A stretch of 15,099 bases of DNA from Mailhella sp. GTDB lineage: Bacteria > Desulfobacterota > Desulfovibrionia > Desulfovibrionales > Desulfovibrionaceae. The DNA is taken from positions 1-15,099 of the forward strand of contig JAFWYI010000240.1 of the NCBI GenBank assembly GCA_017522745.1, written 5' to 3'. The translations under genes and the position numbers were made by a program. Each line of letters opens with the position of its first letter. The stretch's first letter is position 1. This document shows, piece after piece, positions 884 through 14,304 of the stretch. The notes beneath the pieces are model-generated. The model was not told the DNA's origin. It saw nothing but the letters and a program-made list of their open reading frames with translations, and searched no databases.

Positions 884-912
884 TTGACACTCCTCCTTTT
901 GAGGTGCATCCT
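884..912 (+). promoter_or_regulatory. Sigma70-type promoter for the symporter leader transcript
   Basis: A perfect -35 box TTGACA (884-889) is followed after 17 bp by CATCCT (907-912), which keeps the conserved A2, T3 and T6 of the -10 consensus. Transcription would begin near 919, about 15 nt before the leader ORF. The placement downstream of the ligase stop and upstream of the leader peptide supports it. The -10 box is weak, which would suit a gene that is further controlled by attenuation. Confidence 0.55.
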
Positions 913-933
913 TTTTGCCGAAAGGAAAAACGT

Positions 934-1014
934 ATGAACTCCATTTTCGCCATGAACGCCTATTATTACCTCTATTATCATAGCGGGTCTTGCGGCGTGT
1001 CATGCGAAAGGTAG
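934..1014 (+). CDS. Tyrosine-rich leader peptide, 26 aa
   Basis: Short ORF starting at ATG 934 and ending at TAG 1012-1014. It is preceded by a Shine-Dalgarno-like AAAGGA (921-926) at about 7 nt. Residues 10-16 are Tyr-Tyr-Tyr-Leu-Tyr-Tyr-His (codons 961-981), giving five tyrosine codons within six. The ORF is followed by an intrinsic terminator (1047-1080) and then by a sodium:solute symporter gene. This is the layout of amino-acid leader peptides such as PheL, HisL or TrpL, in which ribosome stalling on a codon run decides termination. The peptide itself probably has no function; its translation would be the sensor. The tyrosine run and the spacing are seen directly, and the sensing role is inferred. 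A chance ORF remains possible. Confidence 0.7.
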   Translation: MNSIFAMNAYYYLYYHSGSCGVSCER

Positions 1015-1058
1015 AACACAGAAAGCCTTTCTGAAAACGATAAAACAAAGCCGCACGG
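951..1058 (+). promoter_or_regulatory. Attenuator switch: mutually exclusive leader RNA pairings
   Basis: Segment 1 (951-960, CATGAACGCC) pairs with segment 2 (994-1004, GGCGTGTCATG) in 10 base pairs with one bulged G (999). The loop between them holds all five Tyr codons. Segment 2 (TGCGGC, 991-996) can instead pair with GCCGCA (1050-1055), the 5' arm of the terminator. A ribosome stalled on the Tyr codons would cover segment 1 and free segment 2 to block the terminator. A ribosome at the stop codon (1012) would cover segment 2 and let the terminator form. A small hairpin, CAGAAA/TTTCTG (1019-1033), lies between. The antiterminator core is only 6 bp by eye, so its strength needs a folding calculation. 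Confidence 0.6.
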
Positions 1059-1080
1059 AGTTTCTGTACGGCTTTTTTCT
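1047..1080 (+). terminator. Intrinsic terminator acting as attenuator ahead of the symporter
   Basis: Stem AAAGCCGCAC (1047-1056) pairs with GTACGGCTTT (1066-1075), with one C/A mismatch, around a 9-nt loop. The run of T residues extends to 1078. It lies 32 nt after the leader stop codon and 42 nt before the symporter start, so it can only be an early terminator of the symporter transcript. The ligase gene upstream could also end here. Confidence 0.8.
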
Positions 1081-1122
1081 TTGTCAGGGATTCCGGCGCT
1101 TCCAACCCGCGGAGGAATCCCT

Positions 1123-2706
1123 ATGCTGGTCAAGATCCTTATCCTGCTGTGCTTCTTTCTCGTGACACTCGGCGTTGGCTTTGCCTGCCGCCGCAGTGCG
1201 AACGATGTCAACGGCTTCGTGCTGGGCGGCCGCTCCGCCGGCTCGTGGCTCACCGCTTTCGCCTACGGGACATCCTACTTCTCTGCGGTCATTTTCGTGG
1301 GTTACGCCGGGCAGTTCGGCTGGAAATACGGCATTTCCGCCACATGGATAGGTCTCGGCAACGCCTTCTTCGGCTCCCTGCTGGCGTGGCATGTGCTTGG
1401 CCGCCGCACACGCATCATGACACAGCATCTCGGCAGTGCCACCATGCCGGAATTCTTCGGCAAGCGATTCTGCTCCCCAGCGCTTCGCATCGCCGCGGCC
1501 GCCATAATCTTCATCTTCCTCATCCCCTACACCGCATCCCTCTATAATGGGCTCTCGCGTCTTTTCGGCATGGCCTTCAGCGTAGACTACACATGGTGCG
1601 TGCTGGGCATGGCCGTACTCACCGCCGCCTATGTCCTGCTTGGAGGCTACATGGCCGCGGCTGTGAACGACTTCATTCAGGGCATCGTCATGCTTTTCGG
1701 CATCGTGGCCGTCATCTGGGCCGTTCTGGAAAGCAACGGCGGTATGAGCATGGTCATGGCGAAACTTTCCACCATACCCGCACCTCAGGCCCCGGATATG
1801 CAGGGGGCGCTCATCTCCTTCTTCGGCCCTGCGCCTCTGGAACTTCTAGGGGTAGTCCTGCTCACGTCCTTCGGCACGTGGGGCCTGCCGCAGATGGTGG
1901 GAAAATTCTACGCCATCACCGACGAATCCGCCATTTCCAAGGGAACCATCATTTCCACGGTTTTCGCCTTCATCGTGGCAGGAGGCTGCTACTTCCTCGG
2001 AGGTTTTGCTCAGCTCTATGCAGAGTCCGTGGAATACGCGGCACCGGGCAAGCCTGTTTTCGACAGCATCATCCCCACCATGCTTTCCGGTCTGCCGGAC
2101 ATACTGCTCGGCATCGTGGTCATCCTCGTGCTTTCCGCTTCCATGTCCACGCTGTCTTCGCTGGTCATCACTTCCGGCTCAACGCTCGCGCTGGATATTT
2201 TCGTTCCGCTGATGCGCCGCCGCGGCATACTTCCGGGCAACAGGAGCCAGCTCCTGCAGATACGCCTGCTGGTGGTCTTCTTCATCGCCGTGTCGTCGGT
2301 CATCGCCATCGTTCAGGCCAGAAGCTCCGTCACGTTCATCGCCCAGCTCATGGGTATTTCCTGGGGCGCTCTGGCAGGTGCGTTCCTTGCTCCCTTCCTG
2401 TTCGCGCTGTACTGGAAACGCACGACTCCGGCCGCAGTCATGGCATCGTTCCTTGTGGGCGTAGGCATCATGTGTGCCTGCATGGCGTGCAGTTTCGCAG
2501 GGCTCCCCTTCATCTCGCCCTTCCTGTCGTCTCCCATCAATGCCGGCGTACTTGCCATGCTGGCCGGTCTCATCGTAGTCCCGCTGGTCAGTTTCGTCAC
2601 CTCCGCACCTGAGCGTTCAGAGGTCGACGCCATGTTCGCCAGCTACGATCGCAAAGTCGTGGTGCAGGCTTCCACAGCGCTTTCGCCCCAGGAAGAAAAC
2701 CTGTGA
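1123..2706 (+). CDS. Sodium:solute symporter (SSS/SLC5 family), possibly for tyrosine or aromatic amino acids
   Basis: 527-residue inner-membrane transporter with about 13 hydrophobic segments, taken to couple sodium entry to solute uptake. ATG 1123 is chosen because GGAGGA (1111-1116) sits 6 nt upstream and the first membrane segment starts at once. Family features are FVLGGRSAGSW near 32-42, the unwound-helix region around 47-60, the SSS signature GGYMAAAVNDFIQG near 174-187, and the sodium-site helix LSASMSTLSS near 337-346. The usual Thr of the signature is Asn here. The closest familiar types are PutP-like and other amino- or organic-acid symporters, and sequence alone does not give the substrate. 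The upstream tyrosine-rich leader and terminator suggest, by inference, a tyrosine or aromatic substrate with induction when charged tRNA-Tyr is scarce. The family call is sure; the substrate is speculative. Confidence 0.92.
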   Translation: MLVKILILLCFFLVTLGVGFACRRSANDVNGFVLGGRSAGSWLTAFAYGTSYFSAVIFVGYAGQFGWKYGISATWIGLGNAFFGSLLAWHVLGRRTRIMTQHLGSATMPEFFGKRFCSPALRIAAAAIIFIFLIPYTASLYNGLSRLFGMAFSVDYTWCVLGMAVLTAAYVLLGGYMAAAVNDFIQGIVMLFGIVAVIWAVLESNGGMSMVMAKLSTIPAPQAPDMQGALISFFGPAPLELLGVVLLTSFGTWGLPQMVGKFYAITDESAISKGTIISTVFAFIVAGGCYFLGGFAQLYAESVEYAAPGKPVFDSIIPTMLSGLPDILLGIVVILVLSASMSTLSSLVITSGSTLALDIFVPLMRRRGILPGNRSQLLQIRLLVVFFIAVSSVIAIVQARSSVTFIAQLMGISWGALAGAFLAPFLFALYWKRTTPAAVMASFLVGVGIMCACMACSFAGLPFISPFLSSPINAGVLAMLAGLIVVPLVSFVTSAPERSEVDAMFASYDRKVVVQASTALSPQEENL

Positions 2707-3372: not shown

Positions 3373-6300
3373 TTACTTCAACCGGATCTCGATGTGTACC
3401 CCGAACTTTTCTTCCAGCGCGGCGATGCGGTCGCGCTTACGGTTCAGGATATACAGCGCCAGTTCGGCAGTGCTTTCATACACGAAGGTAGCCATTTCGG
3501 ACTTGTCGCCCTTCGGATCGGCCTTCCTAGTCTTGCCGCTGTCTAGGCTCTTGCAGAGCTTGGAGCGCAGATCGCGCATGGCCTGCAGGGCCTGCCATTC
3601 CAGATTGCGGCGCACCCCGGTGCCATGGCAATGCGGGCAGGGTTCCGTGGTGATGGAAATAGCGGAAGTGCCAGTGCGCTGACGGACCAGTTCCAGCAGA
3701 CCGAAAGAACTCATGTGGCCAACGTCGTGGCGGGCGCGGTCCTTACGCATGGCGTTGCGTATGGTGCGTTCCACCTCGCGGCAATGGTTCTTGTCGCGCA
3801 TTTCGATGAAGTCGATGACCACCTGACCGCCGATATCGCGCAGACGCAGATGACGTGCGATGGCTTCGGCAGCTTCCATATTGGTGCGGAACACCATGGC
3901 TTCGAAGTTGGTCTTGCCCTGCGTCTTGCCGGAGTTGATGTCGATGGCCATGAGAGCTTCCGTCTGGTCGAAGACGAGACGCCCGCCGGAAGGCAGGATG
4001 ACTTCACGGCTGGTCACGGACTCCAGCTGCTTGAGCAGACCGAAGCGTTCCCACATCGTCTGGCGCTGTTCCTTGTGCAGCTTGATGTAGAAATTCTTGC
4101 GATCGGGGAAGATGACGTCGATGACGCCTTCGAGGCGCTTCTTCGTTTCTTCATCGTCCGTCCAGATATCTTCGATATCCTCAGAAAGATAGTCGCGCAC
4201 CGAGCGGGTGGCGAGGTCGGCTTCCTGATAGATGAGCGAAGGGGACTTTTCCTGCTGGGCCTTCTTCTGGATATCCTTCCACATGCGCTGAAGCTGCTGG
4301 AGGTCCTGCTGGATGCTGACCTTGTTCACACCTTCGCTGGCGGTACGGATGATGACGCCCATGTTCTCGCCGGGCTGGATATCGTTCAGAAGCTCCTTGA
4401 GGCGGGCACGTTCTTCAGGATCCTCCACCTTGCGGGAAACGCCGATCTGTTCCTGACCGGGGGTGAGGACGAGGAAGCGGCCGGCAATGGATATCCACGT
4501 GGTAAGGAAGGCGCCCTTGGTACCCGCAGGTTCCTTGACCACCTGGACCAGCACTTCCTGACCGACCTTCAGCACCTTCTGGATAGGAGGATACTTGGGG
4601 CCGCGGCTGGAATCGTGATGGACGAGGTAGTATTCGGGATGGACTTCGTCGATCTGCAGGAAGCCGTTCTTTCCGTTGCCGAAATTCACGAAGGCCGCCT
4701 GAAGATTGGTATCGATATTGTTGATGATACCCTTATAGATATTCCCGCGGATCTTGACCTGATGGGCCATGTCCACAAAATACTCGGTAACGAGGCCATC
4801 TTCGGTGATGACCACTTCCACCTGCTCGTCCGGCACGGAACTGATGTAAAGGGCGCGAACGGCCTTGGACTGTTCGGGAGCGGCTTCGGCCTTGGTCTCC
4901 TCGATGGCGGCCTTCTCGTCTCTCGCAGCGTTCTCTTCGCGGGGAGCCTTCTCGTCCTTGTTCTTCCGTCCCTTGCGGTCCTTACGGTTCTCCTTCTGCT
5001 GGGGGCGGGCAGGAGCGGCGATGCGGTTGCCGTTCACGGCGGCATCGAGCGCTTCAAGGTCTTCTTCCGCCATATCGCCAGAAGAGAAGGGCTGTGCCAC
5101 AGGCTGGTCGAGGATGACAGGCTGAGGACCGTCGTCCTCTACGAAGTCATCTTCCTCCTGACGGCCGAAAGCCACCCCGAGGACACTATCGTTGAGCATG
5201 GCAGCATTGAAATCGAAGTCGGCAGGCAGGGTAGGAACGGCCTGCTGGTTGCGGCGATTCTTCTTGCCGCGACGATCCTTGCGGTTGCCGAAAGGCGCAT
5301 CCGTGAGCGGAGGCTGGAGCTGACCGTAGAATTCCTGCTGGTAGGGAGCGGGCAGATACGGCGAACCGTTGAACATGGGCTGAGCGTCACGGTCGCGACG
5401 CCCCTTACGCGTATTGATACGACGATGGGAACGCACGTCTCCGCCGTATTCATTGGCGTAAGGCAGGATATTCGTCACGATGCCGTCATCGAACCATTCC
5501 GGCTGAGCATCGCTGGAAGGCTTGGCCGGAGCTTCGGCGCGGTTGCCAAGGTCGTCATCAGGCATCTGAGGTTTTTCAAGAGCCTGATTGCCGGGAGCGG
5601 CCTTCTGAAATTTTTCCTGCTGGCGGGCCTTCTTGTTCCGGCGGTCGTTACGATTACGGCGGTTCGGACGTTCCACCACGTCTTCATCCCGCCTGCCCTC
5701 TTCACGCAGACCGGAAGGGGGAAGCATATCGTCGAGTACGATGGCAGAGCCCAGATGCACGATCTGGTCATCATCGTCGAAAGCGCTGTCGTAGTCGGGG
5801 GTGCCAAGAGGCGCGGCTTCAGCACGAGGTCTGCGAGCCTTGCGATTCCGGGGATCGAGACGTTCGGCGCGTTCACGAGGAGCGTTCTTCTCTGCGGCGG
5901 CTTCGGCCACAGGCTGTTCTGCAGGGATGGGAGCGGCTTCCACATCCGCCTCGCCCTGTGCCCCATTCAGCTTGCGGTCACGCTTCACGGACTTGCGGGC
6001 TTCCTTTTCCGCGTCCTCAGCGGGAAGCGCATTGGCCGCTTCGTCACTATGGCTGATCTGCTGGGGGATCTCAGGCTGAACATCTGCCGGCGCGGCTTCC
6101 GTCTTAGCCTTGCGACTGCGGCGAGGTTTGGCCGGCGCGGCTTCTGCAGGAGTTTCCACAGGAGCCGTCACAGGAGCTTCCGCAACGGATACTTCTGCAG
6201 GCTCGTCCTGTACGTCAGCCTTAGCCTTGCGGGGACGACCACGGCGAGGCTTGGGGGCTTCCGTATTTTCAGTGGCGGCTTCGGGAGCGGCATCGCCCGC

Positions 6301-6510
6301 GGGGATCTCCGCGGTCACGGCTTCCGCCTTGGGCTTTCTGCTTCTGCGAACAGTTTTTTTCGGAGCAGGAGCGCCCTCTTCCTGAGTAGCGGGAACAGCT
6401 TCAGGCAGGACCTCAGGAACGGCGGCAGCCTTGGTTTTTCTGCCCTTACGGACGGGCTTTTTGACGGTTTCAGTGGTTGATTCTTCGGGAAGAATGGGGG
6501 TCTGACTCAT
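3373..6510 (-). CDS. rne: Ribonuclease E/G with a long N-terminal disordered scaffold
   Basis: 1045-residue endoribonuclease for mRNA decay and rRNA/tRNA processing. The catalytic part occupies about 551-1045: S1 RNA-binding domain (about 585-680), 5'-monophosphate sensor Arg722-Thr723, catalytic MAIDINSG with Asp857/Asn859, VVIDFIEM with Asp900, zinc-link CPHC (Cys958, Cys961) and a C-terminal small domain. Residues 1-550 are low complexity, rich in Ala/Glu/Pro, with repeated Lys/Arg blocks (17-30, 51-62, 87-99, 128-138, 409-421, 508-520). One block contains the AT-hook-like RRGRPRK. Short aromatic or acidic islands interrupt the tail. E. coli RNase E carries its scaffold at the C-terminus; here it is N-terminal and nothing follows the small domain. 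ATG 6510 has a GAGGA-type site. The gene lies 24 bp after the metallophosphoesterase stop, so the two probably share a transcript. The symbol could equally be rng. Confidence 0.95.
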   Translation of the reverse strand: MSQTPILPEESTTETVKKPVRKGRKTKAAAVPEVLPEAVPATQEEGAPAPKKTVRRSRKPKAEAVTAEIPAGDAAPEAATENTEAPKPRRGRPRKAKADVQDEPAEVSVAEAPVTAPVETPAEAAPAKPRRSRKAKTEAAPADVQPEIPQQISHSDEAANALPAEDAEKEARKSVKRDRKLNGAQGEADVEAAPIPAEQPVAEAAAEKNAPRERAERLDPRNRKARRPRAEAAPLGTPDYDSAFDDDDQIVHLGSAIVLDDMLPPSGLREEGRRDEDVVERPNRRNRNDRRNKKARQQEKFQKAAPGNQALEKPQMPDDDLGNRAEAPAKPSSDAQPEWFDDGIVTNILPYANEYGGDVRSHRRINTRKGRRDRDAQPMFNGSPYLPAPYQQEFYGQLQPPLTDAPFGNRKDRRGKKNRRNQQAVPTLPADFDFNAAMLNDSVLGVAFGRQEEDDFVEDDGPQPVILDQPVAQPFSSGDMAEEDLEALDAAVNGNRIAAPARPQQKENRKDRKGRKNKDEKAPREENAARDEKAAIEETKAEAAPEQSKAVRALYISSVPDEQVEVVITEDGLVTEYFVDMAHQVKIRGNIYKGIINNIDTNLQAAFVNFGNGKNGFLQIDEVHPEYYLVHHDSSRGPKYPPIQKVLKVGQEVLVQVVKEPAGTKGAFLTTWISIAGRFLVLTPGQEQIGVSRKVEDPEERARLKELLNDIQPGENMGVIIRTASEGVNKVSIQQDLQQLQRMWKDIQKKAQQEKSPSLIYQEADLATRSVRDYLSEDIEDIWTDDEETKKRLEGVIDVIFPDRKNFYIKLHKEQRQTMWERFGLLKQLESVTSREVILPSGGRLVFDQTEALMAIDINSGKTQGKTNFEAMVFRTNMEAAEAIARHLRLRDIGGQVVIDFIEMRDKNHCREVERTIRNAMRKDRARHDVGHMSSFGLLELVRQRTGTSAISITTEPCPHCHGTGVRRNLEWQALQAMRDLRSKLCKSLDSGKTRKADPKGDKSEMATFVYESTAELALYILNRKRDRIAALEEKFGVHIEIRLK

Positions 6511-8959: not shown

Positions 8960-10279
8960 ATGAACGTATCTCGCTTTATGCGCGGCGTCTCTGCTGCCGT
9001 GCTCGCTCTCGGCCTTGTTGCCGGTTCCGCAGTCAATGCTTCTGCTGAAGGTTTCGCCATCAGCACTCTCAGCGCCCGTGGCGGCGCTTTCGGCGGCGGC
9101 CCTGCCTCCGGTATGGTGGGTCGTGCCGACGACGCTTCCGCCGTTGCCTACAACCCCGCTGGTCTCACCCAGATCCCCGGCACTCAGGTCATGGCCGGCC
9201 TCGCCGCCGTTGCCCTGAACCTCGACGTAGAAACCGAAAGCGGCCACTGGATGAGCAACTCTCATCAGGTCTGGCCTATCCCTCACGGCTATCTTTCCCA
9301 TCAGCTCAATGATAAGTTCTGGTTCGGCGTGGGCATGTTCACCCGCTGGGGTCTTGGCCATTCCTACCCCGACAACTGGGGTGCTCAGGCTACTCAGATG
9401 CCGACCAACCTGCTCAAGTCCATCACTCTGCTGACCTCCACCATCAACCCCACCATCGCCTACAAGCTGAACGACGTGTGGTCCGTGGCCGCCGGTGTAA
9501 ACTACACCTGGGGCTATCTCAGCCTGAACCAGCAGTTCAATGCTCCGACAATGGGCGCACAGGCCGATATCCGCATCCATTCTGAAAACGGCCACGCCTT
9601 CGGCTATAACCTCGCCCTGCATGCCAAGTTCAATGACCAGTGGAGCGCCGGCCTTACTTACCGCTCTCATGAACGCCTGAAGTTCAACGGCAGCTCCCGT
9701 GTCCGCGGTAATGCTCTTGGCGAAATGCTCGTACTCGGTGGCGGCAAGCTGGGCAACACCCGCGGCAAGGCAACGCTCGTCCTGCCCGACGTCATCACTC
9801 TCGGCGCTGCTTACAAGCCTACCGATCGTCTGAGCTTCGAAGCCGACGTTGCCTACACCGTGTGGAGCCGCTGGCGTTCTCTCAACGTGGATTTCTTCGG
9901 CACTAACCCTGTCACGAACCAGCCTTACACCGGCATCCATCAGCAGAAGAACTGGCGTGACACCTGGGCCTTCTCCCTCAGTGCCGAATACTGGATGTAT
10001 GACTGGCTGGCCCTTCGTGCCGGTATCATGTACGAAACCTCTCCCCTCAACGGCGAAGCATATCACGACTACTTCATTCCTACCAATGGTCGTATTCAGG
10101 CTTCCGTCGGTCTCGGCATGAAGTACGAAGACTGGACCCTCGACTTCGCCTACATCCACATGCACGAACGCGAAACCCCGCTTATTGACCATCATGATGG
10201 CGCTTTCGAAACCCTCAAGGGCAAGTTCGGTAACGGCTACGACCACACCTTCTGCCTCACCCTCGGCTACAAGTTCTAA
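8960..10279 (+). CDS. FadL/OmpP1/TodX-family outer-membrane transport protein
   Basis: 439 residues. An N-terminal Sec signal peptide (basic MNVSRFMR, hydrophobic core, Ala-Ser-Ala at about 27-29) is followed by the mature start Glu-Gly-Phe, which is typical of FadL proteins. The conserved hatch segment runs from about 30 to 75: RGGAFGG, GRADDAS and YNPAGLTQIPG with the NPA motif at 65-67. The rest shows alternating beta-strand patterns and ends in GYKF, a terminal aromatic expected for BamA-recognised barrels. Such channels pass hydrophobic compounds (long-chain fatty acids or aromatics) across the outer membrane; the substrate here is unknown. ATG 8960 has CGAGGA (8949-8954) 5 nt upstream. 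Many GCT/GGT/CGT/AAC codons suggest high expression. It appears to be a single-gene unit closed by a strong terminator. Confidence 0.93.
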   Translation: MNVSRFMRGVSAAVLALGLVAGSAVNASAEGFAISTLSARGGAFGGGPASGMVGRADDASAVAYNPAGLTQIPGTQVMAGLAAVALNLDVETESGHWMSNSHQVWPIPHGYLSHQLNDKFWFGVGMFTRWGLGHSYPDNWGAQATQMPTNLLKSITLLTSTINPTIAYKLNDVWSVAAGVNYTWGYLSLNQQFNAPTMGAQADIRIHSENGHAFGYNLALHAKFNDQWSAGLTYRSHERLKFNGSSRVRGNALGEMLVLGGGKLGNTRGKATLVLPDVITLGAAYKPTDRLSFEADVAYTVWSRWRSLNVDFFGTNPVTNQPYTGIHQQKNWRDTWAFSLSAEYWMYDWLALRAGIMYETSPLNGEAYHDYFIPTNGRIQASVGLGMKYEDWTLDFAYIHMHERETPLIDHHDGAFETLKGKFGNGYDHTFCLTLGYKF

Positions 10280-11140: not shown

Positions 11141-12076
11141 ATGCTTCTTGAGATAGGTCTTATCGCCGGCGGCGTTCCTGCCGGATGGCTCCTGAGAAAT
11201 AATGCCCCGGCAGTGAAGTGGGTGAACGAATTCCTCACATGGACGGTTCGCGCCATGCTCTTCCTGCTCGGCCTTGCGCTGGGGTTGGACGACGAACTCA
11301 TCGGTCAGCTCGAAAGCCTTGGTCTGTATGCGGTCATCATCAGCTCGTTTTCCGTGATGGGCTGCTTCATGGCCGCACGTCTGCTGGGCAAATACGTGTT
11401 CACGGAATACGCACCGGAAAGTAATACCCGAGGCGGCGAACATACCTCCGGCCTTGCCAGGAGCCGAGGCTCCTTCATCGCGCTGGGCTTCTTCGTGCTG
11501 GGGGCCCTTATGGGTTGGATGCGCGTCATCGAGCCTACTCCAATGGCAGGAGAAGCCGCGGTGTGGGTGCTGTATCTCCTGCTTTTCTCTGCGGGCATGA
11601 CTGTCGGCTTCGACCTCAAGGCGCTGGGCGTCATCCACGAGCTGAAGGGGCGCATCCTGCTCATCCCGCTGGGCGTTGTGGTCGGGACTTTTGCGGGTTC
11701 CGCTCTGGCGTGGTGTGTTCTGTCCACCTTTGCGGACATCACGCTGATAGAATCGCTGGCCGTGGGTGGCGGCTTCGGCTACTACAGCCTCGCCACGGTG
11801 ATACTCACGCGGCTGGGCGACCCGGCGCTGGGTTCCATGGCCCTGCTTTCCAACATGATCCATGAGGCGCTGGCCCTGCTCCTGCCGCCCTTCCTCGTGC
11901 GCTTTTCCGGCAAACTCGGTCCAGTGCTGGCGGGCGGTGCGGCGGCTATGGATACCTGCCTGCCTGTGGTCGCTCATGTGAGCGGCGAACGCTGTGCCAT
12001 CCTCGCCGTCTTTTCCGGGATGTGCCTGACGCTGTTCGTCCCCATACTCCTGCCGCTGCTCATGGCTATCCGCTGA
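11141..12076 (+). CDS. lysO: LysO-type lysine exporter (YbjE/DUF340 family)
   Basis: 311-residue inner-membrane protein with about 8 hydrophobic helices and few long loops; the largest loop is at about 88-108. Family features are the N-terminal helix pair ending in LFLLGLALG (41-49), the central AGMTVGFDL (151-159), GGGFGYYSL (209-217) and GGAAAMDTCLP (265-275). These correspond to the glycine-rich stretches of E. coli LysO, which exports L-lysine and toxic analogues. ATG 11141 follows TGAGG, which overlaps the stop of the reductase gene; the 7-bp gap points to one operon. E. coli lysO is placed under ArgP; no such operator was recognised here. The family is well supported; lysine as substrate follows from relatives. 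Confidence 0.85.
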   Translation: MLLEIGLIAGGVPAGWLLRNNAPAVKWVNEFLTWTVRAMLFLLGLALGLDDELIGQLESLGLYAVIISSFSVMGCFMAARLLGKYVFTEYAPESNTRGGEHTSGLARSRGSFIALGFFVLGALMGWMRVIEPTPMAGEAAVWVLYLLLFSAGMTVGFDLKALGVIHELKGRILLIPLGVVVGTFAGSALAWCVLSTFADITLIESLAVGGGFGYYSLATVILTRLGDPALGSMALLSNMIHEALALLLPPFLVRFSGKLGPVLAGGAAAMDTCLPVVAHVSGERCAILAVFSGMCLTLFVPILLPLLMAIR

Positions 12077-12159: not shown

Positions 12160-12957
12160 CTAGATGACGTCCAGAAGCATCTTGGTCGCCACGCAGTACA
12201 GGAAGCAGGCGAATATCTTCTTGAGCTTGGGGATGGGCAGTTTATGGGCCAGCGCCGCACCACGAGGAGCCGTGATGGTGCTTATCGCCACGATGCCCAC
12301 GAGGGCAGGCAGGTAGATGAAGCCCAGCGTGTACTCCGGCAGGTCGGGCGTACCCCAGCCGTTCACGATGAAGCCGAGGCAGCCGGCCAGCGCGATGGGG
12401 AAACCGATAGCCGCAGACGTGCCCACAGCGCGGCGCATATCCACGTTATGCCAGACAAGGAAGGGCACGGAAAGCGTGCCGCCGCCGATGCCCACAAGGC
12501 TGGACACGGCGCCGATGACCATGCCGGCACCCGTCATCCCCTTGAAGCCGGGGAGCTGGCGCGTGGGGTTGGGCTTCTTGTTGAGCAGCATGTTGGTGGC
12601 CACGTAGTACAGGAAGCAGACGAAGAACATCTGGAGATAGCGGGCAGGAATGGCCGCCGCCACGAAGGTGCCCGTGTACGTGCCGACAAGGATACCGACC
12701 GCGATGTATTTCACCACGTTCCAATCCACACCGCCGCGCTTGTGATGGGCGCGGGCGCTGGAAATGGCCGTGAACATGATACTGCCCAGAGACGTACCGA
12801 TGGCCATGTGTATGGCCACGGACTGGGGGATGTTCAGCCAGTCGAAGGCAAAAACGAGCATGGGCACGACAACGGCCCCGCCGCCGATGCCCAGAAGCCC
12901 GGCCAGCAGGCCGGCCACAGCGCCAAGTACGCAATAAAGAATCATCGCAGTGAGCAT
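12160..12957 (-). CDS. TauE/SafE (TSUP) family anion permease
   Basis: 265-residue inner-membrane protein with about 8 helices in two homologous halves. Each half carries the family's GIGGG turn (about 23-27 and 156-160) and a closing helix of nearly identical sequence (FVCFLYYVATNML and FACFLYCVATKML). TSUP proteins move sulfite, sulfoacetate, taurine-derived or other small anions; which one cannot be read here. ATG 12957 is preferred, because GAGGA (12968-12964, minus strand) lies 6 nt upstream; a TTG two codons earlier would touch the ribosome site. The gene is transcribed away from the AraC regulator across a 405-bp gap, so control by that regulator is possible. In a sulfur-metabolising host a sulfite or sulfonate substrate would make sense, but this is inference. 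Confidence 0.92.
   Translation of the reverse strand: MLTAMILYCVLGAVAGLLAGLLGIGGGAVVVPMLVFAFDWLNIPQSVAIHMAIGTSLGSIMFTAISSARAHHKRGGVDWNVVKYIAVGILVGTYTGTFVAAAIPARYLQMFFVCFLYYVATNMLLNKKPNPTRQLPGFKGMTGAGMVIGAVSSLVGIGGGTLSVPFLVWHNVDMRRAVGTSAAIGFPIALAGCLGFIVNGWGTPDLPEYTLGFIYLPALVGIVAISTITAPRGAALAHKLPIPKLKKIFACFLYCVATKMLLDVI
12176..12213 (-). repeat. Intragenic direct repeat, copy A (end of TSUP second half)
   Basis: 38-bp segment that matches 12587-12624 at 34 of 38 positions in the same orientation. It encodes the closing helix of the second half of the permease. The two halves of TSUP proteins are old duplicates, so such close DNA identity is more than expected. Confidence 0.85.
12587..12624 (-). 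repeat. Intragenic direct repeat, copy B (end of TSUP first half)
   Basis: Partner of 12176-12213, with four mismatches in 38 bp, two of them C/G, one C/T and one A/G. It encodes the closing helix of the first half of the permease. Confidence 0.85.
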
Positions 12958-12985
12958 ACACAATCCTCGGGATAAGGTTTAGGTC

Positions 12986-13362: not shown

Positions 13363-14304
13363 ATGAGCGCCCCTGCCGAACCGCTGCATCACTACTTTGA
13401 GCTTCTCCGCAGAACTCTCCTTCAACGTGTTCCTCAGGTCGGATCTTCCGCGCTGTCTGCGACCGGACTCCGCTGCCTGCGAAGAAATACGCCTGCCGCG
13501 CCCGAAGCCGGTCTGCTCTCTCCCTGTGTTTACCTTGTGGTGCAAGGGGCGGCACGCATGACCATGAGCGGTGAGGAGATCTTCCTCCAGCCCGGGCAGT
13601 TCCTTGCCAACTGCGTGGACATGCATACGGTCTTTTCGCTCGACGCCTCTGAGGACACGCCGTTCCTCGCACTGGCGCTGGATATGGATAGCAGTGCGTT
13701 CGCAGAGATGTTCCGTGAGCTGGACGAAGCGAAGGACGCCAGCTCCAGCGACGAAAAAAATCCTGGCGAAACAGGCGGCTCCGGTATTTCCAGCACCAGC
13801 AGAGCGATATACGTCTCTCGGGCAACGCCGGAACTGCTCAACGCGTTTCTGCGCCTCGTAACGCTGGAAGGCGATGAACGCCGCATCCGTTTCATCTCGC
13901 ATCTTATCATCAGGGAGATCTGTTTCTATCTGGCAGAAGACGAAAACGGAGCCTGCCTGCGGGCTTTTTACGCATCGTCCACTCAGGGCAGTCAAATCGC
14001 CAGAGCCATAGGCTATATGCGGGAACACTGCCATGAACGCCTGCGCATCGAAACGCTGGCCAGACTGGCAGACATGGCGGAATCGACGTTCAACAGGAAT
14101 TTCCGCAGGATCACCACGCTCAGCCCTCTGCAGTATCATAAGAACCTCAAACTGCATGAAGCCAGACGTCTCATGATAGCTGAAAACATGAGTGCGGCCG
14201 CTGCCTGCTACGCCGTGGGCTATGAAAGCCAGCAGCAGTTCACCCGGGAATATAAACGGCTGTTCGGCAGTCCTCCCATGAAGGATGCCCGGCGTTCGCA
14301 GTAA
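13363..14304 (+). CDS. AraC-family transcriptional regulator
   Basis: 313-residue cytoplasmic DNA-binding regulator. The N-terminal effector half resembles the AraC_N type (PF06719-like): PCVYLVVQGAARMTMSGEE (54-72) followed by LQPGQFLANCVD (75-86). A Ser/Asp/Gly-rich insert (about 122-146) lies between it and the linker helices. The C-terminal AraC DNA-binding domain has two helix-turn-helix units: IETLARLADMAESTFNRNFRR (about 229-249) and about 277-302, with the typical ...GYESQQQFTREYKRLFG (286-302) ending. ATG 13363 follows GGAGG (13350-13354) by 8 nt. It is divergent from the TSUP permease and precedes the MBL hydrolase by 63 bp, so either could be a target; self-control is also common. 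The ligand is unknown. Confidence 0.93.
   Translation: MSAPAEPLHHYFELLRRTLLQRVPQVGSSALSATGLRCLRRNTPAAPEAGLLSPCVYLVVQGAARMTMSGEEIFLQPGQFLANCVDMHTVFSLDASEDTPFLALALDMDSSAFAEMFRELDEAKDASSSDEKNPGETGGSGISSTSRAIYVSRATPELLNAFLRLVTLEGDERRIRFISHLIIREICFYLAEDENGACLRAFYASSTQGSQIARAIGYMREHCHERLRIETLARLADMAESTFNRNFRRITTLSPLQYHKNLKLHEARRLMIAENMSAAAACYAVGYESQQQFTREYKRLFGSPPMKDARRSQ

Follow-up and report, generated by a model that had tools for sequence, protein, structure and literature searches.

A predicted tyrosine attenuator before a sodium:solute symporter gene, with a T-box counterpart in related genes

The region in front of a sodium:solute symporter (SSS) gene of Mailhella sp. is real and conserved and, judged from its sequence and those of its relatives, very probably a tyrosine attenuator, which is new in its signal, its target family, the phyla in which it occurs and its T-box counterpart. 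We consider it highly likely that this region acts as a ribosome-mediated transcription attenuator with tyrosine as the signal. Because tyrosine leaders precede the gene in three phyla of gut bacteria, and another tyrosine sensor precedes it in further relatives, a shortage of tyrosine very probably switches the symporter gene on. The window, i.e., the whole stretch of 15,099 nucleotides that was analysed, belongs to a 1.68-Mb draft genome of the Desulfovibrionaceae that is 85% complete (G000). The original prediction for this DNA was right on anatomy and signal, and its interpretation as a tyrosine attenuator is supported, with the amendments given below.

Anatomy of the element and predicted pairing of the leader RNA

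The element (Table 1) had been predicted to include a promoter with a consensus -35 hexamer, a ribosome-binding site and the ATG of a 26-codon leader, an intrinsic terminator and an SSS target gene, and each of these was found. A consensus scan missed the promoter, because it required at least four of six matches per hexamer and CATCCT scores three; the same scan also left the terminator unlisted. The run of five tyrosine codons in six, likewise predicted, is confirmed: among the 30162 frames in the window it is the sole one with at least five Tyr in six codons, and no such run occurred in 300 simulated windows (first-order Markov). Comparison of the window with Rfam yielded no family at gathering score, T-box (RF00230) included. 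The symporter matches PF00474 at 182.5 bits (cut-off 22.8).

Table 1. Features of the element in the window (coordinates are window positions).
Feature	Position	Strand	Evidence
Leader promoter: TTGACA 884-889, 17-nt spacer, CATCCT 907-912	884..912	+	Sequence read; 9/12 consensus matches
Leader ribosome-binding site AAGGA	922..926	+	Sequence read
Leader ORF MNSIFAMNAYYYLYYHSGSCGVSCER*, 26 codons, ATG 934 to TAG 1012-1014	934..1014	+	Sequence; leader kept in G001, G003, G208
Regulatory codons TAT TAT TAC CTC TAT TAT, 5 Tyr of 6	961..978	+	Tyr at 961, 964, 967, 973, 976
1:2 stem, arm 1, directly 5' of Tyr codons	945..960	+	Folding, shuffles, alignment
1:2 stem, arm 2, overlapping antiterminator arm	994..1009	+	Folding, shuffles, alignment
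Antiterminator arm TGCGGC	991..996	+	Folds, exact complementarity
Antiterminator partner GCCGCA, inside terminator arm 3	1050..1055	+	Folds, exact complementarity
Intrinsic terminator: stem 1047-1075, T-run 1073-1078	1047..1078	+	Folding vs shuffles
Sodium:solute symporter gene (SSS, PF00474); SD GGAGG 1111-1115	1123..2706	+	Profile match

The 1:2 stem is present, but its length had been understated: instead of the predicted 10 bp between 951-960 and 994-1004, it has 15 pairs, formed by 945-950 and 952-960 with 994-1009 (-22.8 kcal/mol for 945-1009). The segment 945-1010 folds at -23.5 kcal/mol (z -3.56), and none of 200 shuffled sequences was equally good; for the terminator region 1044-1080 (z -3.98), one of 200 was. 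The competing helix of the original prediction (991-996 with 1050-1055) is an exact pairing, but the segment that contains it, 980-1058, folds no better than shuffles (z -0.31). Compensatory changes in related leaders, which had been proposed as a check, were found in the 1:2 stem but not in the antiterminator. In four species, 91.7% of the cells of the 1:2 stem are paired and two pairs are changed on both sides; the covariation score, which comes from only four sequences, was matched by 28 of 500 shuffles. Three species have an identical 6-bp antiterminator, and two of its pairs are broken in G208, so that there is no covariation; G208 has lost part of TGCGGC, and its fold relies on a shifted pairing.

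From this anatomy, we infer a transcript, ribosome stalling, termination and read-through, as follows. RNA polymerase would start near 919, and a ribosome would translate the 26-codon leader. With ample charged tRNA-Tyr, the ribosome would reach the stop codon and cover arm 2, the terminator would form, and transcription would end near 1078. With charged tRNA-Tyr in short supply, the ribosome would stall on the tyrosine codons, covering arm 1 and freeing arm 2, which would then pair with the 5' arm of the terminator and allow read-through into the symporter gene. Without translation, the 1:2 stem would form, and termination would be the default. The symporter, once made, would raise the tyrosine supply, via import either of tyrosine or of an aryl acid that is converted to tyrosine.

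Folds with a modelled ribosome agree with this scheme in part. In the window, 8.7 of the 13 nt of arm 3 are paired upstream when the ribosome sits on the second tyrosine codon, compared to 3.9 nt when it sits on the stop codon and 1.8 nt when there is no ribosome. Upstream pairing of arm 3 with the ribosome on the tyrosine codons, halved or lower on the stop codon, was seen in 9 of 17 leaders (four Desulfovibrionaceae, three Bacteroidota, L167 and L198); in L050 and L167, this pairing is about equal without a ribosome. The Clostridia-type leaders L054, L055 and L140-L145 show little or no difference between the two ribosome positions, or a reversed one; in leaders of this type, AGTAATAGTGATT around the stop is complementary to the tyrosine codons (alignment, folds). 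With the ribosome on the tyrosine codons, the terminator probability of 0.94 drops to 0.18 in G001 and to 0.10 in G003. In the window and in G208 it is still 0.94 at equilibrium, and the model therefore needs a kinetic order, in which the pairing of arm 2 precedes the synthesis of arm 4. In 17/17 leaders, antiterminator pairing is above the mean of the shuffles, with P < 0.05 in two of them (L051, L167) and P 0.126 in the window; combining the 17 leaders by Fisher's method gives 0.002, a value that is too favourable, given the relatedness of the sequences. Of all parts of the attenuator model, the antiterminator is the least secure. Its statistical weakness, together with equilibrium folds that keep the terminator, would fit control at the level of translation or of transcript stability, with the last hairpin not decisive. 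We consider such control very unlikely, because the T-run of this hairpin lies 44 nt 5' of the symporter start and the symporter ribosome-binding site (1111-1115) is outside the hairpin.

It should be noted that the Clostridia-type leaders L054, L055, L140-L145 and L147 have their stop codon within the conserved AGTAATAGTGATT, which gives TAA, TAG and TGA consecutively. Elsewhere in the window, an open frame of 951 aa (3625-6480, + strand) runs antisense to an RNase E/G gene (PF10150; 3373-6510, - strand) and is probably a by-product of base composition. Further neighbours are a FadL/TodX-type outer membrane protein (8960-10279), a LysO-type exporter (11141-12076), a TauE/SafE protein (12160-12963) and an AraC-type regulator (13363-14304); no tyrosine link was seen for these four.

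Tyrosine leaders and T-boxes before orthologous symporters

We collected 219 ortholog loci: 20 from the family of the window, 80 from a collection of species genomes (the 80 best among 574 confirmed) and 119 from two broader searches; six of the 116 matches of one search were left out. A leader was defined as an ORF of 8-60 codons with at least four Tyr in seven codons, no more than 400 nt upstream. Such leaders were found at 21 loci, or 18 after merging contigs present twice (L033/L049, L052/L129, L054/L138). L055 (same contig as L139) has the tyrosine run, with the leader start beyond the contig end, which brings the total to 19 distinct leaders: 4 in Desulfovibrionaceae, 3 from metagenome-assembled genomes labelled Bacteroidota and 12 in Clostridia. 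For example, MGLKGATYRYYYYPARE, MTTISHTASYYYYYYRTPLWGWEVYV and MRFVNYTCAYYYYYYYYFA are leaders of this kind; their sequences differ from group to group, and the plan is common to all. The definition was satisfied by 18 of 215 distinct upstream segments, compared to 11 of 4465 control segments of the same loci, which were taken from both strands and are mostly coding. In the same test with other residues, no upstream segment qualified with His, Trp, Cys, Asn or Gln and five did with Phe, whereas Arg (31), Leu (29), Ala (24) and Ser (22) had higher counts than Tyr.

The original prediction had named orthologous leaders without tyrosine codons or terminator as evidence against it; all 19 distinct leaders keep the tyrosine cluster, and an intrinsic terminator follows 17 of them. 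The terminator of L147, where a hairpin is visible on inspection, was missed in the count because the gene start is mis-set, and the hairpin of L220 has only a poor T-run. Promoters recur as well. All four Desulfovibrionaceae leaders have the same -35 and spacing, with CATCCT or CATGCT as the -10; an exact TTGACA-17-TATAAT precedes 10 of the 11 Clostridia leaders with upstream sequence, and the other one has 10/12 matches. The promoter end lies 21 to 42 nt from the leader start outside Bacteroidota. Before all three Bacteroidota leaders, TAnnTTTG, which we take to be the Bacteroidota promoter motif, starts 31 to 50 nt 5' of the leader start.

One could read the hairpin as the ordinary terminator of the upstream gene, a D-Ala-D-Ala ligase gene, with a chance tyrosine-rich frame nearby, given that it sits between two genes of the same strand. 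This reading is contradicted, and we regard it as extremely improbable, because tyrosine clusters recur before orthologs and because leader and terminator follow the symporter while the upstream ORF changes: read by eye, the four Desulfovibrionaceae leaders lie behind four different ORFs, the other three presumably encoding, from their translations, an RND efflux pump (G001), a helix-turn-helix protein (G003) and a PyrR-like protein (G208). Of 19 genomes from the genus that were searched at the DNA level, three contain the element, always before the symporter; an extra 30-nt match in G007 was taken as chance. A search of 16 genomes for second leaders with a five-Tyr pattern, which is blind to the shorter runs of Desulfovibrionaceae, gave matches in nine, each at the symporter leader. 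Six further five-Tyr places were rejected as leaders: four in long ORFs, L289, which lies in frame just 5' of a long ORF, and L291, a short frame behind another ORF.

Leader composition bears on the specificity of the signal. The attenuator might sense aromatic amino acids generally, Tyr and Phe together, as Phe (6) outnumbers Tyr (4) in the G208 leader, and the Clostridia leaders have 4 to 9 Tyr and 0 to 4 Phe. We hold this to be unlikely: Tyr is the clustered residue in 19/19 leaders, the three Bacteroidota leaders and L220 contain no Phe, and the T-boxes before orthologs read UAC, as described next.

A T-box motif ([TC]GGNACC[GA][CT]G) was found within 400 nt upstream at 43 of the 219 loci, all in Bacillota, and none of these 43 has a leader. 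The T-box-bearing loci include L061, L074, L108 and L123 plus 39 others. When 29 of them were compared to Rfam, 19 matched at gathering score (L215 and L217 among them) and eight more at E up to 1e-4; L168 (G953:C250) also matches, and L213 had no T-box match in this comparison. By text search, 30 of the 43 loci have UA(C/U) in a context like that of a specifier, the hit in L176 being elsewhere; at the other 13, UAC was read by eye in the printed loops, and L176 reads GAAUACC. The specifier columns of the covariance alignments show UAC for L061, L108, L123, L193, L200, L208, L214 and L217, and ACA, ACC or ACG in the ungapped alignments of L074, L176, L185, L205 and L215. This register can be set with the valS T-boxes of three genomes from the same set (G889, G805 and G734), in which GUA or GUC (valine codons) directly follows the same GAA; by this register, the symporter T-boxes read UAC (Tyr). 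The UAC reading is less certain for L234, L244, L246 and L247. Since some orthologs have the leader and others a UAC T-box, two unrelated sensors would tie one gene to tRNA-Tyr charging.

No gathering-score T-box was found before the nine leader-bearing loci scanned, and no T-box at E up to 0.001 in G000, G001, G208, G304, G305 or G306. T-boxes do occur at other places in eight Clostridia genomes with a leader (seven have 8 to 13 matches each and G899 has one, counted at E up to 0.001, with many below gathering score). A weak T-box match (63.7 bits) lies directly 3' of a leader-controlled symporter at G924:C26:16494-16782. At 155 of the 219 loci (two being the cut leader L055/L139), leader and T-box motif are both absent within 400 nt upstream; L006, of the same genus as the window and 74% identical, has neither.

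A quick tree was built from 84 symporters; on it, the distribution of the 19 leader rows requires 5 changes, compared to 17.4 in shuffles, and the starred branches of the tree force at least 4. Leaders fall into a Clostridia group of nine (support 95), another of three (support 99) and a mixed group of Desulfovibrionaceae and Bacteroidota, in which 7 of 10 members have a leader (support 99). This mixed group suggests leader transfer between phyla.

Gene neighbours and the candidate substrate

We infer the substrate from the tyrosine-specific control and the gene neighbours, which together suggest tyrosine or an aryl acid such as 4-hydroxyphenylacetate. The symporter falls below the TIGR00813 cut-off (159.9 vs 184) and the PutP and PanF equivalog cut-offs, and a search of solved structures with its sequence returned sodium/glucose cotransporters only. 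We surveyed the neighbours at 139 loci longer than 2.5 kb (some contigs are present twice), counting as ligases proteins with at least 55% identity over 300 residues to the acyl-CoA-ligase-like protein of L067. Such a ligase occurs at 38 of the 139 loci, adjacent to the symporter in 32; other neighbours are iorA (16), iorB (9) and a PaaK-like ligase (13). None of these linked loci is among the leader or T-box loci. At L067 (6759-10954), the genes are arranged as symporter, iorA, iorB and ligase; iorA scores above the IOR_alpha cut-off and iorB above a beta-subunit cut-off, and the ligase passes no family cut-off among the matches listed (25 of 98 families).

In methanogens and rumen bacteria, indolepyruvate ferredoxin oxidoreductase together with an aryl-CoA ligase can form aromatic amino acids from aryl acetates, and the SSS family has known permeases for phenylacetate. 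We propose, tentatively, a salvage route that may operate in gut anaerobes: the symporter would import an aryl acid, probably 4-hydroxyphenylacetate, the ligase would activate it, and the oxidoreductase, run in reverse, would yield the arylpyruvate and hence tyrosine, under tRNA-Tyr control by a T-box in some lineages and, in others, by a tyrosine leader that was exchanged several times and moved between phyla. A route from 4-hydroxyphenylacetate to tyrosine fits the tyrosine control and leaves the Bacteroidota members unexplained. According to a passage of PMC7925072, 4-hydroxyphenylacetate is not a substrate of the tyrosine transporter known from C. difficile.

In the genome of the window (G000:C44, 68%), in G001 and in 11/11 leader-bearing Clostridia genomes searched, the ligase ortholog is encoded away from the symporter; in G000 and G001, it has no T-box or leader in front. 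A T-box motif precedes the ligase in 8 of the 10 Clostridia genomes with the start available, with a UAC reading in six. A PaaK-like ligase of G308 is preceded by a T-box that reads UUC (Phe). The leaderless genomes G002, G011, G015, G018, G307 and G491 gave no match to the ortholog at E up to 1e-60. Control through a sensor before the ligase, considered as the reason for sensorless orthologs, was rejected, with no T-box or leader found before the ligase at 31 ligase-linked loci with upstream sequence.

The same attenuator could serve a symporter that imports tyrosine itself, with no aryl-acid precursor, which is possible, if rather doubtful. It is the simplest reading of Tyr-only control, and it fits the leader-bearing genomes G003, G208 and G304-G306, in which the ligase ortholog had no match at E up to 1e-60, as well as the absence of TyrA (PF02153) from the leader-bearing Bacteroidota G304-G306. 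However, the linkage of leaderless orthologs to acyl/aryl-CoA ligase, iorA and PaaK-like ligase genes counts against tyrosine as the substrate, because the linked enzymes handle acids, not amino acids. TyrA is present in the leaderless G307 and G491. Tyrosine auxotrophy as a rule was rejected, TyrA being found in 9 of 12 leader-bearing Clostridia genomes and, with weaker matches, in G001, G003 and G208. There was no TyrA match in the 85% complete draft G000, and PDH_C (PF20463) gave no information, being absent from every Desulfovibrionaceae genome tested.

Relation to known systems and meaning

Leader-peptide attenuators of enterobacteria control trp, his, phe, leu, thr and ilv genes. The element described here shares with them a short ORF with a run of regulatory codons, a terminator before the gene and, as predicted, alternative 1:2, 2:3 and 3:4 helices; it differs in the tyrosine signal, in targeting an SSS transporter rather than a biosynthetic operon, and in its occurrence in Desulfovibrionaceae, Bacteroidota and Clostridia. 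The T-box (RF00230) with a UAC specifier likewise senses tRNA-Tyr charging and precedes orthologs of this symporter in Bacillota, but it binds tRNA directly and requires no translated leader. An exchange of both kinds of sensor before one gene is described in passages on Firmicutes, where His leader peptides replace His T-boxes (PMC2965389, PMC9413887); that exchange, as described there, is His-specific, with the new leaders in Firmicutes, whereas the one proposed here concerns Tyr and three phyla. Transport under tyrosine control is also described in part of PMC2494555, as a Tyr T-box before NhaC-family transporters, i.e., NhaC instead of SSS and without a leader peptide. The transporter table given there lists no SSS family, and another passage of the paper mentions four 'sodium symporter' genes with distant T-boxes, the family being unstated there. 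The original prediction had called a tyrosine leader before an SSS transporter an unfamiliar case; in the open-licence literature, we found neither a tyrosine leader attenuator nor an SSS gene under one, aryl-acid import by IOR-linked symporters being outside the scope of this search. The proposed link to aryl-acid salvage is also new.

These data would add tyrosine to the signals of leader attenuators and place such attenuators in Desulfovibrionaceae and Bacteroidota. They provide a substrate prediction, tyrosine or 4-hydroxyphenylacetate, for at least 7999 candidates (E up to 1e-100) named only 'sodium:solute symporter'. The symporter would also be a clear case of unrelated RNA sensors taking each other's place before one gene, with the signal unchanged.
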